Shown: piece after piece, positions 1,721 through 9,529 of the stretch | Layout of the letters: the number at the start of each line of letters is the position of its first letter | Position numbering within the stretch: the stretch's first letter is position 1 | DNA from: Clostridia bacterium BRH_c25 | GTDB lineage: Bacteria; Bacillota_A; Clostridia; Lutisporales; Lutisporaceae | Reading direction: 5' to 3' | Assembly (NCBI GenBank): GCA_001515955.1 | Contig: LOES01000212.1 | Span: 1-9,529, forward strand | DNA: 9,529 nt | Notes under the pieces: model-generated | Database searches by the model: none | Seen by the model: only the letters and a program-made list of their open reading frames with translations | What the model was told of the DNA's origin: nothing | Position numbers and translations under genes: made by a program

Positions 1721-2557
1721 ATGAAAATAACAGTCCTTGCAGACAATAATACAATCATAGACCGGTATTTCCTTGGTGAACCGGGGGTGTCTTTTTTTAT
1801 TGAAGAATGTGGCAGGAACGTAATATTTGATGTGGGATATTCTGATGTCTTTATCCGGAATGCACAGCGGTTGAATATCAATATGTATGATATAGACTTT
1901 GTTGCAATATCGCATGGACATATAGATCACACCTGGGGACTTGCGCCGTTGATAAGCTTATACAGTGAAGCTTTAATTGAAAAGCTGAGCTTCAAAAAGC
2001 CTGTGCTTATAGCTCATGAAGAAGCATTTTCAAGTAAATATTATGAAAACGAAGTAATTGGGTCTATAGTTACAGAAAAAACATTAAGAGATTATTTCAA
2101 AGTAAATTTGCGGGTAAAGCCTTTTTGGATTACGGAAAAACTGGTCTTTTTAGGCGAAATCGAGAGAACAAATAACTTTGAGAATAAAAAGCCCATTGGC
2201 AGATACATGCACAAGGGCATCGAAGAGGATGATTTTTTAATTGATGATACAGCCCTTGTATATAAATCAAATAAAGGACTGGTAATTATAACAGGATGCT
2301 CACATTCCGGCATATGCAACATCATTGAATATGCGAAGAAAATTTGTAATGATAACAGAGTAGCGGATATTATAGGGGGACTTCATTTGTTGAAGCCTGA
2401 TATAGAACAAATGGATTCGACAAAGAAATATATTAAGGAGACGAATGTGGAAGAGCTACATGCATGCCATTGTACCGATCTGCATTCAAAAATAGCATTG
2501 TCGGAAGTAACAGAAGTAAATGAAGTAGGCGTAGGGCTTAAATTGGAGTATGAATAA
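1721..2557 (+). CDS. MBL-fold metallo-hydrolase, COG1237 type (dihydropterin-aminobenzene-phosphate synthase-like)
   Basis: A 278-residue metallo-beta-lactamase-fold protein. The metal-binding motif SHGHIDH is at residues 64-70 (H65, H67, D69, H70). Further likely ligands are H195 in TGCSHSGI, H222 in IGGLHLL and H250 in HACHCTD. These blocks (FDVGYS early, GLVIITGCSHSGI, GGLHLL, CHCT near the end) are characteristic of the family that includes the archaeal methanopterin-pathway enzyme annotated as 7,8-dihydropterin-6-methyl-4-(ribofuranosyl)-aminobenzene-5'-phosphate synthase. Bacterial members usually have unknown substrates. It is probably cytoplasmic, with no signal peptide. Despite the fold name, it should not be assumed to hydrolyse beta-lactams. 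GGAGGTG 4 bases before the ATG fixes the start. The beta-lactamase gene begins at its stop codon, so the two are probably translationally coupled. Confidence 0.88.
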   Translation: MKITVLADNNTIIDRYFLGEPGVSFFIEECGRNVIFDVGYSDVFIRNAQRLNINMYDIDFVAISHGHIDHTWGLAPLISLYSEALIEKLSFKKPVLIAHEEAFSSKYYENEVIGSIVTEKTLRDYFKVNLRVKPFWITEKLVFLGEIERTNNFENKKPIGRYMHKGIEEDDFLIDDTALVYKSNKGLVIITGCSHSGICNIIEYAKKICNDNRVADIIGGLHLLKPDIEQMDSTKKYIKETNVEELHACHCTDLHSKIALSEVTEVNEVGVGLKLEYE

Positions 2558-2558
2558 A

Positions 2559-3419
2559 ATGAGAAAGTCAAGAATTATACTATTACTGTTTGTATTAGCG
2601 ATGACAATTGGCTGCAGTAATGCAAACAAAGAATCATTAATTAATGATGCATATATATCTGCAGAAGATACAAAAGACAGCAGTCAGGCAGTTGAAAAGA
2701 TTTTAACCGAAGATTTAAGCGATTATTTTACAGGGTATGAGGGATGTTTTGTTTTGTATGACAACAAGAAGGGCGAGTATTCCATATATAATAGAAATAA
2801 GAGTATAAAACAAGTACCTCCGTGTTCAACCTTTAAAATAGTTAACTCATTAATTGGCCTTGAGGCAAATGTTTTGCAGGATGGAAACACTGTTATTAAG
2901 TGGGATGGAACCAGATATGCAATTGAGGAATGGAATAAAGATCATTCATTATCTTCCGCAATATCAAATTCTGTTGTATGGTATTATCAACAGGTCGCAT
3001 CAACGGTCGGGGAAGAAAGAATGCAAAGCTGGCTGGACAAAATAAACTATGGGAACAAAGACATATCCGGAGGAATAACAAAATTCTGGCTGCAATCATC
3101 ATTAAAGATTTCTCCGAGAGAACAAGTTGATATGTTAAAACAAATGTATGCTTATAAATTACCTTTTTCACAGAAAAATGTTGATATAGTAAAAAAAATT
3201 ATCATACTTTCAGATGAGGATGGTATTGTTTTATCTGGAAAAACCGGTTCAGGAGTAAAAGAGAATAAAGGGATCAATGGATGGTTTGTCGGTTATGTTG
3301 AGCGGGATGGCAACGTATTCTTTTTCGCCGCTAATATTGAAGCAGAAGATGGTGCAGCCGGTGTCAAAGCAAAAGAAATAGCTATGAGAATACTGAAGGA
3401 TAAGAGTATTATACAGTAG
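2559..3419 (+). CDS. Class D beta-lactamase (OXA-type fold), predicted lipoprotein
   Basis: A serine beta-lactamase or penicillin-interacting protein with all class D motifs. These are S90-T-F-K93 (nucleophile and the lysine that is carbamylated in the family), S138-V-V140 (SxV), Y164-G-N166 and K228-T-G230, plus FWLQSSLKIS around W177 and GWFVGYVE. The N-terminus (MRKSRIILLLFVLAMTIGC) is a type II signal peptide with Cys19 as the likely lipidated residue. The lipobox TIGC is not ideal, and a low-complexity linker follows to about residue 45. The protein is therefore expected outside the cell, tethered to the membrane. I prefer ATG 2559 (286 residues) because GGAG at 2545-2548 lies 10 bases upstream. 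ATG 2550, in frame and 3 codons longer, leaves only one base. The preceding stop is at 2555-2557, so translation is coupled to the MBL gene. No blaI/blaR regulator is adjacent. Confidence 0.92.
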   Translation: MRKSRIILLLFVLAMTIGCSNANKESLINDAYISAEDTKDSSQAVEKILTEDLSDYFTGYEGCFVLYDNKKGEYSIYNRNKSIKQVPPCSTFKIVNSLIGLEANVLQDGNTVIKWDGTRYAIEEWNKDHSLSSAISNSVVWYYQQVASTVGEERMQSWLDKINYGNKDISGGITKFWLQSSLKISPREQVDMLKQMYAYKLPFSQKNVDIVKKIIILSDEDGIVLSGKTGSGVKENKGINGWFVGYVERDGNVFFFAANIEAEDGAAGVKAKEIAMRILKDKSIIQ

Positions 3420-5290: not shown

Positions 5291-6061
5291 ATGCCAAAAA
5301 CAGAAGATTTAAGGCTTGCGGTACTTATTGACGCCGAAAACGTCCCATACAAGAATATCAGGGGGATACTTGAGGAGGTTGCCAAGTATGGGACCCCTAC
5401 GATAAAAAGAATTTATGGTGACTGGACAAATGCAACTTTGTCCGGCTGGAAGAATTCCTTACTGGAAAATGCGATAACGCCAATACAGCAGTATAGCTAT
5501 ACCACTGGGAAGAACTCCTCAGACTCAGCGCTGATCATTGATGCAATGGATATATTGTATTCTGAAAAGGTTGACGGCTTCTGTATAATATCCAGTGACA
5601 GCGACTTCACAAGGTTGGCTACCAGACTGCGTGAGGCAGGCATGAAGGTCTTTGGTATAGGAGAGAGAAAAACACCCAATGCATTTATTGTTGCCTGTGA
5701 TAAATTCATATATATTGAAATTATAAATGCGCCTGTCAAGCATGACGATACAGATACTAACGGCACCCAAAAAGCAGATGTGGTTGAACAGGGACCGAAA
5801 ACCAACACCGTGGACATAGGACAAGAAATAATCAATCTTATTTCTGCATCTGTAAACGATGTTGCTGATGATAACGGCTGGGCTTTCCTGGCTGATGTGG
5901 GCAATCTGATATCCAAGAAGCAGCCCGATTTTGATGCCAGGAACTATGGCTTTTCCAAGCTTACTCCCCTTGTTAAGAGTCTTAAGCGCTTCCAAATCGA
6001 AGAAAGGGAGTCAAGTAATTCAAGAATTAAGCATATATATATCCGGAATAAGATTAAATAA
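5291..6061 (+). CDS. NYN domain protein with C-terminal OST-HTH/LOTUS domain (putative RNase)
   Basis: A 256-residue protein of two domains. The N-terminal NYN/PIN-like domain (about 7-145) has the expected acidic residues: D14 in VLIDAENVP, D78 and D84 in SSDSALIIDAMD, and D103 and D105 in ISSDSDF. In the LabA/NYN superfamily these bind a metal for RNA cleavage. A polar linker (about 146-173) leads to an OST-HTH/LOTUS-type winged helix (about 174-254: GQEIINLISASV, WAFLADVGNLISKKQPDF, YGFSKLTPLVKSL, then a basic end). In the family this domain binds RNA or proteins. It is probably a cytoplasmic RNA-processing or RNA-binding protein of unknown target. AAGGGAG (5277-5283) lies 7 bases before the ATG. 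The gene sits 49 bases after the phosphatase and 43 before a GNAT. Confidence 0.9.
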   Translation: MPKTEDLRLAVLIDAENVPYKNIRGILEEVAKYGTPTIKRIYGDWTNATLSGWKNSLLENAITPIQQYSYTTGKNSSDSALIIDAMDILYSEKVDGFCIISSDSDFTRLATRLREAGMKVFGIGERKTPNAFIVACDKFIYIEIINAPVKHDDTDTNGTQKADVVEQGPKTNTVDIGQEIINLISASVNDVADDNGWAFLADVGNLISKKQPDFDARNYGFSKLTPLVKSLKRFQIEERESSNSRIKHIYIRNKIK

Positions 6062-6630: not shown

Positions 6631-7491
6631 ATGTTTAAATACAACACCTTGGAAGATACAAATATTGAAACGTTACACAAGTCATTTGTGGACGCATTCT
6701 CAGATTACCAAATAAAAATTGACTTACCACTTTGGAAGCTTCAACAAATGCTTCAGAGAAGAGGTTATGTTCCTGAGAAATCAATGGGCGTATTTAGGGA
6801 TGATGCTTTGGTAGGTTTTATACTTAACGGATACCGGGAGTGGAACGGAAAACTTACAGTATACGATACAGGAACAGGCGTTCTCCCCGAGTATAGAAAG
6901 AAAGGCTTGACAACAAACATGTTCCGGAATGTTATGGAGCTGCTCAAAGCTGAGGGAGTGGAGCAGTATTTGCTGGAGGTAATCCAGCAGAATACATCAG
7001 CCTATGAGCTTTATAGAAAGCAAGGTTTTGAAATAACCAGAACCTTTACATGCTTTAAGCTGGATAAGAGTAAATATAAGTCACAAACAAACATCGAGGT
7101 AGAACATATCGACGGGTTTACAGCTGCTGAATGGGAGCAGGTGAAAACATTCCGGGATTGGAAACCATCATGGCAGAATTCTATTGAGGCTGTCTGCTCT
7201 TTGCCGGGAGAATTTATATATTCGGCAGCCCGTTCTGATAATAAAACAGTCGGTTATGGAATAATCGAAAAAAGAACAGGTGATATACCTCAATTTGGGG
7301 TAGACAGGAAGTATAGGCGTAAGGGAATTGCAGCAAGTATAATGACTGATCTGATTAATAATACTAAATCAGATAAGATTTCGGTTATTAATGTAGACGA
7401 TCAATCAAAAACGTCAAAGGAGTTCTTGATTGCACTAGGATTTGAGCATTATGTTGAACAATATGAAATGGTTTTGGATATTAATGCTTAA
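6631..7491 (+). CDS. Tandem two-domain GNAT acetyltransferase
   Basis: A 286-residue protein with two GNAT units. The first (about 1-145) has the acetyl-CoA loop PEYRKKGLTT (R89, G92, T94) and the helix NTSAYELYRKQGFEITR, which matches the end of a complete GNAT core. The second (about 155-285) has FGVDRKYRRKGIAASI (R229, G232, A234) and ends with FLIALGFEHYVEQYEM. Both loops look usable, though the first has Thr in place of the last Gly/Ala; in double GNATs often only one domain is active. The substrate is unknown. AGGGGG ends 5 bases before the ATG, and the gap from the preceding GNAT is 25 bases. The two neighbouring GNATs are not obvious duplicates of each other: the first has the COG3981 block, which this one lacks. 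Confidence 0.88.
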   Translation: MFKYNTLEDTNIETLHKSFVDAFSDYQIKIDLPLWKLQQMLQRRGYVPEKSMGVFRDDALVGFILNGYREWNGKLTVYDTGTGVLPEYRKKGLTTNMFRNVMELLKAEGVEQYLLEVIQQNTSAYELYRKQGFEITRTFTCFKLDKSKYKSQTNIEVEHIDGFTAAEWEQVKTFRDWKPSWQNSIEAVCSLPGEFIYSAARSDNKTVGYGIIEKRTGDIPQFGVDRKYRRKGIAASIMTDLINNTKSDKISVINVDDQSKTSKEFLIALGFEHYVEQYEMVLDINA

Positions 7492-7853: not shown

Positions 7854-8594
7854 ATGTCAAAGTTAAAGAAGCTTTATGTTTCTATAATTCTATTTATAAT
7901 ACTAGCCTTGAGCATCTGGTATTTAACACTTGATTTTTCAAGGTTCTTTAGTCGGAATTACAGCTATGACATTTATCCAAGTGCTATGTTGAAGCGAATA
8001 AATGCAATTCTTGCTGTTTTTATTGCCTGGGCTGTTGATAAGGACGGGCTAAGCTTAAGAGACAGCAGAAGGATGAAAGCAGCTTTTATCTTTATCATTT
8101 TGGGAGAGGCTGCTTTTGCTATAGGAGAGAGAGCAATTGGCGTAGGAATTTTCACTGTTTGCCAAACCCTGCTGATTGTTAGAAATAGTACAGGCTTAAA
8201 ATACAAACTGAAGCATGCAAGTCATATACAAAAGAAGAGGCTAATAATATCAGGCTTTATTTTAATGCTCATTCTTGCAGTGTTCTCATTTATGTTCGCC
8301 TCTTTAATCAAGCTTTGCAGTGCATTCATAGCAGCATACCTGTATGGTATAGTACTGAGTATATCCCTATGGGCAGGCTTGGCCGCCAACACACTCGAGT
8401 TGCTTCCCAAAAGGAACTCAGTAATGGTGGCTGTGGGAATGATATGCTTTTATTGCTGTGATGTACTGGTAGGGCTTGATGCTGTGATGGAGGCAGGACT
8501 CCCATGGTTATGGGCAAACAGCTTGATCTGGATATTTTATATACCGGCTCTTGTACTGCTTGCGCTAAGCTGCTACAGATATAATAATATATAA
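7854..8594 (+). CDS. Multi-pass membrane protein, probable divergent YhhN/TMEM86 (lysoplasmalogenase-like) family
   Basis: A 246-residue protein with about 7-8 hydrophobic segments (roughly 7-25, 49-62, 75-92, 94-110, 130-148, 153-177, 188-208, 215-238). It is predicted to be in the cytoplasmic membrane. The layout resembles the YhhN family: a central ILGEAAFAIGERAIGVGIFTV segment at the place of the family's GD-L....GL.LF block, a late GMICFYCCDVLVGLD segment, and a final IWIFYIPALVLLAL helix. Family members in animals cleave the vinyl-ether bond of lysoplasmalogens; bacterial function is less clear. The central acidic position is Glu rather than Asp, so the match is divergent and I hold it as tentative. 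The 9-base gap after the ArsC-like stop suggests cotranscription. A new promoter starts 6 bases after its stop. Confidence 0.65.
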   Translation: MSKLKKLYVSIILFIILALSIWYLTLDFSRFFSRNYSYDIYPSAMLKRINAILAVFIAWAVDKDGLSLRDSRRMKAAFIFIILGEAAFAIGERAIGVGIFTVCQTLLIVRNSTGLKYKLKHASHIQKKRLIISGFILMLILAVFSFMFASLIKLCSAFIAAYLYGIVLSISLWAGLAANTLELLPKRNSVMVAVGMICFYCCDVLVGLDAVMEAGLPWLWANSLIWIFYIPALVLLALSCYRYNNI

Positions 8595-8599
8595 TAGTA

Positions 8600-8628
8600 T
8601 TGACACGGGAACAAATGTTCTGCATTAT
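8600..8628 (+). promoter_or_regulatory. Candidate promoter for the YcaQ/AlkX-type glycosylase
   Basis: A perfect TTGACA -35 (8600-8605) begins 6 bases after the stop of the membrane-protein gene. With a 17-base spacer the -10 would be CATTAT (8623-8628, 4 of 6); TATACA at 8626-8631 is an alternative but needs a 20-base spacer. The start would lie near 8635, giving a leader of about 140 bases. The LexA-type site lies inside the spacer. Confidence 0.5.
8609..8620. promoter_or_regulatory. LexA (SOS) box, Firmicutes type, GAAC-AAAT-GTTC
   Basis: GAACAAATGTTC fits GAACN4GTTC exactly and the Bacillus-type consensus CGAACRNRYGTTYC at all core positions; only the outer C's differ. It lies between the TTGACA -35 and the proposed -10, where LexA would block RNA polymerase. 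The target is the DNA-repair glycosylase at 8778. Confidence 0.65.
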
Positions 8629-8630
8629 AC

Positions 8631-8680
8631 ATTTCGCGAAAAACATTTTAAATTTTCATTCAAATTTCGCGTAAATGTTT
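8631..8680. repeat. Twin ATTTCGCG elements with AAACATTT/AAATGTTT arms
   Basis: ATTTCGCG occurs at 8631-8638 and 8664-8671, 33 bases apart, about three DNA helical turns. The first is part of a perfect 10-base palindrome TTTCGCGAAA (8632-8641). AAACATTT (8641-8648) and AAATGTTT (8673-8680) form an 8-base inverted repeat across the interval. These could be binding sites for a second regulator or a leader hairpin. Confidence 0.4.
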
Positions 8681-8690
8681 CCTTAGTTGT

Positions 8691-8738
8691 TATTGAATTC
8701 GCACTATACCCTATAGGAATACTTTTGTGCGTTCAATA
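8691..8738 (+). repeat. Interrupted hairpin in the leader of the YcaQ/AlkX-type gene
   Basis: The left arm TATTGAA-tt-CGCAC (8691-8704) pairs with GTGCG-TTCAATA (8727-8738), giving 12 base pairs with a 2-base bulge and a 22-base loop. The loop contains the palindrome CCTATAGG (8710-8717). No T-run follows, so it is not a standard terminator. It would lie in the mRNA leader, 39 bases before the start codon. Confidence 0.45.
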
Positions 8739-8777
8739 TACTATTACCAAGAAATGAAAATTGAGGTATAAATATTA

Positions 8778-9529
8778 ATGGATGCAATAATAATCACAAA
8801 ACAGCAGGCACGTCAATTCATTCTAGCCTATCATGGCTTGTCGGGCAAACGTATGTTCTCCGGAAAACAAGGCATATCTGAATTTATCGGCAAGGCAGGT
8901 TGCATTCAGTTTGACCCGTTGAACATAGTGGGACATAATCATGAACTGGTATTGCAATCAAGGATCAAGGGCTTTAAGCCCAAGATGCTTCAAGAGCTGC
9001 TGTATAAAGAACGGAAGCTTATAGACGGCTGGGACAAGAATATGTCTATATACTGCACAGCGGATTGGCCTTACTTCAAGAGATTGAGGGAAGCAGCCAA
9101 ACAGAGGCTGGGGAACAGTAATAAGCCAATCAATAATGTATTGGCACAGATACGCAGGGAAATTGAAGAGAGGGGCCCCGTATCTTCAACAGATCTGGAC
9201 TATACGGAGCTGGTGGATTGGTCCTGGGCACCCACCAAAATTTCCCGTGCGGCATTGGAAAGCATGTATTTCTGGGGAGAGTTAATAATTCATCATAAGG
9301 CATATACACGCAGGATATATGATTTTGCCAGCCGCAACCTGCCGGAGGAACTGTTGTTCGCTTCCGATCCGAATATTACCGACAGTCAGTATTTTGCATG
9401 GTATGTACTGCGGCGAATAGGCGGAATCGGCATGCTCTGGAATAAAGCAGGGGATGCCTGGCTTGGAATAGATGGATTAAAAAGCAAGGAGCGCAATGAA
9501 GCTTTTGAACTGCTGCTTGAAGCCGGTAA
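8778..9529 (+). CDS. Winged-helix DNA glycosylase, YcaQ/AlkX family (crosslink repair; 3' end outside window)
   Basis: The first 250 codons of a HTH_42 family protein (usually about 400 residues); the frame is open to the window end. AlkX/YcaQ unhooks interstrand DNA crosslinks such as those made by nitrogen mustards, by removing alkylated bases. The diagnostic block is GKAGCIQFDPLNIVGHNHEL (residues 38-57). Q44-F-D46 matches the QxD catalytic motif of the YcaQ/AlkX branch, not the QxQ of AlkZ, and LQSRI (59-63) follows as expected. WSWAPTKISRAALESMYFWGEL (148-169) is the typical middle winged-helix region, and SQYFAWYVLRRIGGIGML follows. GAGG (8763-8766) is a somewhat distant ribosome binding site, 11 bases before ATG 8778. 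A 183-base leader region with a LexA-type box precedes it. Confidence 0.88.
   Translation, partial: MDAIIITKQQARQFILAYHGLSGKRMFSGKQGISEFIGKAGCIQFDPLNIVGHNHELVLQSRIKGFKPKMLQELLYKERKLIDGWDKNMSIYCTADWPYFKRLREAAKQRLGNSNKPINNVLAQIRREIEERGPVSSTDLDYTELVDWSWAPTKISRAALESMYFWGELIIHHKAYTRRIYDFASRNLPEELLFASDPNITDSQYFAWYVLRRIGGIGMLWNKAGDAWLGIDGLKSKERNEAFELLLEAG

Follow-up and report, generated by a model that had tools for sequence, protein, structure and literature searches.

The stretch of DNA analysed here, referred to as the window, comprises 9,529 nucleotides of contig LOES01000212.1 from Clostridia bacterium BRH_c25 and ends within a predicted DNA glycosylase gene of the ycaQ/alkX (YQL) type. The gene occupies positions 8778..9527 of the plus strand and is open at the window end; its partial product (250 residues) matches the Pfam family AlkZ-like (PF06224, HTH_42) with 102.3 bits at a cut-off of 25.9, and no NCBIfam model matched it at an E-value of 0.001. 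The QΦD motif is present as Q44-F45-D46 (codons 8907-8915), and a Q-hydrophobic-D motif recurs in all 113 collected homologues of at least 300 residues. In excerpts of two papers, two clades are distinguished within the family, QΦQ (AlkZ-like) and QΦD (YcaQ-like) (PMC7367128, PMC9040887). The full-length YcaQ of the sister genome, G175, has a single sequence match in the PDB, 9ZD6, which aligns over residues 36-385 and is given, in the excerpted structure paper, as T. fusca AlkX (TfuAlkX) with DNA (PMC13303869). Crosslink unhooking and excision of 7mG are reported for other YQL/AlkX members in excerpts of the same literature (PMC7367128, PMC9040887, PMC13303869). By its PF06224 match and QΦD motif, the window product is presumably a YQL/AlkX-type glycosylase, and it may be expected to possess the corresponding enzyme activity. 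Elsewhere in the window, positions 2550-3419 encode a protein with a penicillin-binding transpeptidase domain (Pfam PF00905) and an STFK motif, which we take to resemble a class D beta-lactamase-type protein, and positions 5291-6061 encode an NYN nuclease domain fused to an OST-HTH/LOTUS domain.

The upstream open reading frame ends at 8594, leaving a gap of 183 bases before the ycaQ ATG at 8778; 114 of these bases belong to an inserted repeat. The preliminary description had reported, in such a gap ahead of a QxD YcaQ-type gene, a GAAC-N4-GTTC palindrome just after a TTGACA box, and both the gap and the coordinates of the two elements are confirmed in the sequence. On the plus strand, the -35 hexamer TTGACA (8600..8605; sequence reading and promoter scan) is followed by 3 bases, the putative LexA-type operator GAACAAATGTTC (8609..8620), 2 bases and the -10 hexamer CATTAT (8623..8628; promoter scan and alignment with G175). 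The operator assignment draws on the sequence itself and on the geometry in homologues. A Shine-Dalgarno-like GAGG, likewise read from the sequence, lies at 8763..8766 (plus strand). The resulting promoter, TTGACA-17-CATTAT, has a 17-bp spacer and 10/12 matches, and it is the only plus-strand promoter-like site found by the scan between 8500 and 8800. Over both strands of that stretch, the scan returned 3 promoter-like sites at a shuffle mean of 2.0 (sd 1.3), hardly an excess, so the promoter scan alone proves nothing. Exact GAACN4GTTC sites are found three times in the window, compared with 0.06 expected from shuffles; those at 6872 and 9348 are intragenic, and only the site at 8609 falls within a promoter-like spacer. 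Since two of the three palindromes are intragenic, the palindrome by itself is no proof of function.

Could the palindrome then have arisen by chance, in front of a constitutive promoter? The two additional intragenic copies are compatible with this idea, as is the description of E. coli ycaQ as constitutive in an excerpted study (PMC7367128). The comparison of homologous loci renders it exceedingly improbable. The search for GAACN4GTTC upstream of orthologues, which had been proposed as a check, was carried out on a set of 137 loci (50 from genome contigs, together with those from whole-genome searches), of which 120 were distinct after re-finding by tblastn and removal of duplicates; in the class to which genome G003 belongs, a YcaQ match was present in 26 of 341 genomes. 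The loci derive from best hits (the 30 best among 135 matching genomes and, in another search, 30 loci from 39 matching genomes), and the rates therefore apply to the nearer homologues, with Paenibacillaceae over-represented. Far from being absent, the exact box is located in the 350 bp ahead of the start in 51 of the 120 distinct loci, a count that is slightly low because a 52nd locus (L048, exact site at 2169) was missed. Paenibacillus silagei and P. jilunlii are examples of species with the box. Counted over all 120 loci, 52 exact sites fall into 41,457 bases of ycaQ upstream sequence versus 5 in 700,694 bases elsewhere, which are mostly coding. Per base, exact sites are thus approximately 175 times rarer outside the upstream sequence, and one of these 5 sites is inside the G175 ycaQ gene itself. 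The position is also largely fixed. In 44 of the 51 boxed homologues, the box is found at -45 to -65, and 38 of the 51 reproduce the geometry of the window, with a -35 hexamer beginning 9 bp before GAAC, a 17-bp spacer and at least 9/12 promoter matches. For 48 of the 51, the inner bases of the box match RNRY when read in one or the other orientation; RNRY is the inner consensus of the operator in B. subtilis.

The distribution of the box was compared with the phylogeny of the protein. In the tree branch of the window, all 39 sequences carry it, 37 of them from the Paenibacillales side and the remaining two being the window and its sister G175. The window and G175 are joined with a support of 100, and these two are joined to the 37 others with a support of only 80. 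Placed on the protein tree as a label, the box changes state 9 times (13 times if one-mismatch sites are counted) versus 38.0 for shuffled labels; the tree is a quick one with several long branches and no bootstrap, and kinship alone also clusters such labels. For the branch of the window, the explanation by chance can be discarded on the count of 51 among 120 loci, the enrichment, the 39 of 39 and the shared geometry. Outside this branch, the picture is mixed: 62 of the 113 homologues of at least 300 residues have no exact box, near ones included (L004 and the Sporomusa locus L047), and 7 of the 113 have, instead of the exact box, a one-mismatch site within 130 bp, some of them placed in the promoter (L021, L070, L120). 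The closest named relative, Sporomusa KB1 (66% identity), has an exact site by lexA and none at ycaQ. Together with the 62 homologues that lack the exact box, this indicates that LexA control of ycaQ is not universal.

Which repressor would recognize the box is best judged from G175, the nearest genome, whose YcaQ is 82% identical to that of the window and has the same neighbours, namely Spx/ArsC-like, membrane and GNAT genes. (In G175, the gene for the membrane protein immediately upstream of ycaQ, L232/L089, is far shorter than its window counterpart at 7854-8594, apparently through an internal deletion.) G175 contains one LexA match, with 100.6 bits, and the organism of the window probably has a LexA as well, judging from this sister. 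The G175 assembly of approximately 3.7 Mb holds 25 GAACN4GTTC sites, compared with 104 for the reversed control pattern; all were inspected, and 18 are intragenic and 7 intergenic. The intergenic sites are located (i) before uvrB; (ii) between lexA (~245 bp away) and a small, divergently oriented LysM-domain gene (29 bp away), a one-mismatch site being situated nearer to lexA; (iii) before recA; (iv) ~260 bp before a small open reading frame with an IMS (Y-family polymerase) gene behind it; (v) directly before an RQC-domain gene of ~142 residues (L236, C28:49246); (vi) before ycaQ, at -55; and (vii) in an intergenic stretch several hundred bases long (L241/L242, C34:80896), as an orphan that cannot clearly be assigned to any target gene. 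An RNRY centre in either orientation is present in all 7 intergenic sites versus 4 of the 18 genic ones (Fisher p 0.0007), and the RQC-domain gene, which stands behind an exact box of the RNRY type, is a possible further SOS gene. All 12 letters of the window ycaQ box are identical to those of the site before recA in G175. Four of the 25 sites lie inside mutS/mutL (L229, C23:200327-202466), three of them in mutL. The mutS site, the centre of which does not fit RNRY, recurs in the congeners G286 and G306 and not in G343 or G393; of the mutL sites, the first is shared with G393 alone, and neither of the other two is found in any of the loci that cover it. After this comparison, the mutS/mutL sites were set aside as coding-sequence sites rather than SOS boxes.

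Eight further genomes were probed for LexA, of which 5 have an exact ycaQ box, 1 a one-mismatch box and 2 neither. A LexA match is present in 6 of the 8, including all 5 with the exact ycaQ box, and is lacking in two (G007 and G008). Of the 6 LexA-bearing genomes, 5 have an exact site by lexA, and G002 has one with a single mismatch; among the 5 genomes with an exact ycaQ box, the corresponding numbers are 4 and 1. These data bear on the idea that a different repressor, recognizing the same palindrome, acts at ycaQ in place of LexA. Having no LexA match, G007 and G008 would be in line with such a regulator, in particular G007, which has a one-mismatch box at ycaQ (L021); on the other hand, both of them lack the exact ycaQ box (L021, L030), and in G175 the same 12-mer precedes recA and the same pattern accompanies lexA and uvrB. 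A repressor other than LexA thus appears very unlikely. In an excerpted study, in vitro binding of C. difficile LexA to sites of the GAACN4GTTC class is described for recA, lexA and uvrBA (PMC4234289). Overall, the proposal that ycaQ stands under LexA control is supported by the conservation of the box, its fixed place in the promoter and the occurrence of the same operator at lexA, recA and uvrB of G175, and LexA is the probable regulator at the level of sequence comparison.

The promoter of the window differs from that of its sister by an insertion, which the preliminary description does not mention. Aligned with the G175 promoter (TTGACA-AAC-GAACAGATGTTC-TG-CATACT, box at -55), the window shows 114 extra bases between GTTCTGC and ATACTATTACC, placing its box at -169 rather than -55. 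The insert (8624..8737, plus strand), which is missing from the G175 ycaQ promoter, begins within the -10 hexamer: CAT/ACT in G175 corresponds to CAT/TAT in the window, CAT being common to both and TAT derived from the insert. As its ends share AT, the insert could also be placed 2 bp further on, at 8626-8739; as to a target-site duplication, one empty site is available, with this 2-bp slippage (AT). The compact spacing in 44 of the 51 boxed homologues suggests that the window gained the insert rather than that G175 lost it.

Searched against G175, the insert gave at least 44 matches, with 40 of 99 candidates scored, the best showing 91% identity over 116 bases; these many matches mark it as a dispersed repeat. 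The copies in G175 (loci L166-L205) are approximately 114-117 bp long, and some are arranged head to tail (L167, L191). An alignment of 42 copies, the window included and two shortened copies among the 44 matches (L197, L203) left out, folds into two bulged hairpins, in which 11 of 22 pairs show at least one compensatory change; one pair, for example, is C-G in 27 and U-A in 14 of the 42 sequences. Hairpin 1 (8629..8678, plus strand) has arms at 8629-8641 and 8665-8678, and for 7 of its 12 pairs a compensatory change is seen in one or more sequences. Hairpin 2 (8692..8737, plus strand) has arms at 8692-8703 and 8728-8737 and a 2-nt bulge; 4 of its 10 pairs are supported by compensatory changes, in one sequence each, and 5 of the 10 are invariant in the 42 sequences. 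When 150 of 2,582 candidates in G175 were scored with a covariance model built on this alignment, at least 74 matches were obtained at E ≤0.001; of the 22 genomes in the taxonomic family of G175, 10 contain one match or more. Weak matches outside the genus (E ~1e-7 to 1e-4, from a roughly calibrated model) may represent looser kin or chance. The window copy scores 139.1 bits, by construction, as it is part of the alignment. An anti-Shine-Dalgarno-like stretch is found by the left end in 20 of 43 repeat copies and a Shine-Dalgarno-like one by the right end in 2 of 43; from this end-sequence pattern, the copies may often be located just before the ribosome site of a leftward gene.

Several origins of the insert were considered. 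Rfam yielded no match of weight for the window leader or for 6 of the 40 copy loci, only three microRNA hits far below their gathering scores, and the fold of the leader is hardly more stable than that of shuffled sequences (z -0.95); a known RNA in the leader was rejected on both accounts. Matches to Y1 transposases are present in all 4 genomes tried, with 12 matches in G175 and its congeners. No copies of the repeat occur in 8 regions around 8 of these 12 matches (G175, G306, G393), and the Y1 gene on G175 contig C8 is flanked by a repeat different from the window insert; kinship with REP/RAYT elements is therefore unsupported, and this origin was rejected. That C8 gene (L268:1443-2450) encodes a RAYT-like Y1 transposase with inverted GGGACAGGTACC-type repeats on both sides, which form a separate repeat family. 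A viral origin was likewise dismissed: four viral contigs share a 19-base pattern, and none of the four matches the repeat model at E ≤1. We call the insert an unclassified MITE-like repeat.

For a promoter altered in this way, the regulation itself may be questioned. The insert might have weakened or uncoupled the SOS promoter in the organism of the window, such that the box is kept and DNA damage barely raises AlkX; this would be compatible with LexA control in the relatives, and its odds overlap those of the explanation given below. The split of the -10 hexamer relative to G175, the two hairpins brought into the leader and a new -10 hexamer with just 4/6 matches all point in this direction. 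However, the G175 hexamer CATACT matches at 4/6 as well, the spacer and box geometry is intact, the promoter/terminator scan found no terminator-like site in the ycaQ promoter/leader stretch of the window, and the leader fold hardly exceeds shuffled sequences in stability. An uncoupled promoter is thus rather unlikely.

The explanation that best accommodates the operator, its conservation and geometry, its regulon-mates in G175 and the insert is that ycaQ/alkX belongs to the LexA (SOS) regulon of the window's lineage and that a repeat entered its promoter while sparing the operator geometry; we consider this joint explanation highly probable. RecA-stimulated cleavage of LexA and the unhooking of crosslinks by AlkX are established, and these activities could be linked at the locus in the following manner: LexA, bound at 8609-8620, would cover the spacer between -35 and -10 and thereby keep RNA polymerase off. 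Upon DNA damage, RecA filaments would trigger the self-cleavage of LexA, and the ycaQ promoter would open. More AlkX would then unhook N7-guanine crosslinks, the remaining base excision steps finishing the sites, and UvrB-dependent excision would be induced in parallel. The ancestral ycaQ promoter was presumably compact, with the box ~55 bp ahead of the start codon. In the window's lineage, the two-hairpin repeat of 114 bp would have entered the -10 hexamer, which re-formed as CATTAT. The insert would thus preserve the -35 hexamer, the operator and the spacer, supply half of a -10 hexamer with an equal number of matches and add a leader of ~140 nt with two hairpins, past which regulation presumably still works. 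The predicted transcription start is near 8635. A more far-reaching reading joins these elements: in one branch of the Bacillota, glycosylase-driven crosslink unhooking may belong to the core of the SOS response, as part of a compact regulon that also comprises recA, lexA and uvrB, and the promoter remodelled by the insert, with its new structured leader, may change the induction. As a whole, this wider reading is tentative and somewhat doubtful.

The regulation of alkX/ycaQ has been presented as species-specific and unsettled, the gene being constitutive in E. coli and induced by mechlorethamine in A. baumannii (PMC13303869). A conserved LexA operator would provide a concrete wiring in the Bacillota, in which UvrB and crosslink-unhooking base excision share a single switch, and the insert constitutes a natural test of how far an SOS promoter tolerates a mobile-looking repeat. 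In excerpts of the E. coli study, ycaQ is induced neither by mechlorethamine nor by MMS, and lexA and uvrA are upregulated with mechlorethamine (PMC7367128). The alkX gene of A. baumannii is induced by mechlorethamine and acid, and species-specific regulation of alkX/ycaQ is suggested in the same 2026 structure paper, the main text of which contains neither ‘LexA’ nor ‘SOS’ (PMC13303869). Excerpts of further work touch upon the gene: E. coli ycaQ was upregulated ~2.8-fold (log2 1.47), together with recB and recF, with versus without a quorum signal, and was supposed to work with the SOS response, LexA being unnamed in those excerpts (PMC11837865); ycaQ was among the genes with lower transcript levels in a relA mutant under enrofloxacin (PMC11015494); and in M. 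smegmatis it is named once in the excerpt, without LexA (PMC12027616). Two more excerpted papers mention ycaQ and LexA in unrelated places (PMC8483737, PMC10328246). As far as their excerpts extend, none of the four papers containing both terms (PMC7367128, PMC11015494, PMC8483737, PMC10328246) gives LexA control of ycaQ, and the main text of a paper on the LexA regulon of S. venezuelae does not contain ‘glycosylase’ (PMC9380542). In the open-licence PubMed Central literature, no report of LexA control of the YcaQ/AlkX family and no paper joining AlkX with LexA was found; a LexA-operated ycaQ would hence be a new regulon member behind a known operator.

Three known systems are most relevant for comparison. 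The insert resembles short hairpin repeats, for which MITE, REP/RAYT and BOX-like are names in use when they are dispersed, in being short, present in many copies and composed of two imperfect hairpins; it differs from them in that Rfam gives no match of weight and that 8 of the 12 Y1-transposase matches have no copy in their vicinity. The YQL/AlkX enzymes (E. coli YcaQ, A. baumannii AlkX and T. fusca AlkX, 9ZD6) share PF06224 and the QΦD motif with the window product, whereas the genetic setting differs: E. coli ycaQ lies within a putative four-gene operon according to the excerpted study (PMC7367128), and the window gene is the first behind a LexA-type operator. The LexA/SOS regulon of Bacillota such as B. 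subtilis and C. difficile is matched in the GAACN4GTTC operator, its placement between -35 and -10 and, in G175, the regulon-mates lexA, recA and uvrB; unlike the locus described here, the main text on the C. difficile regulon mentions neither ‘ycaQ’ nor ‘glycosylase’ (PMC4234289). As far as we can see, a LexA-operated ycaQ represents a new wiring of known parts.
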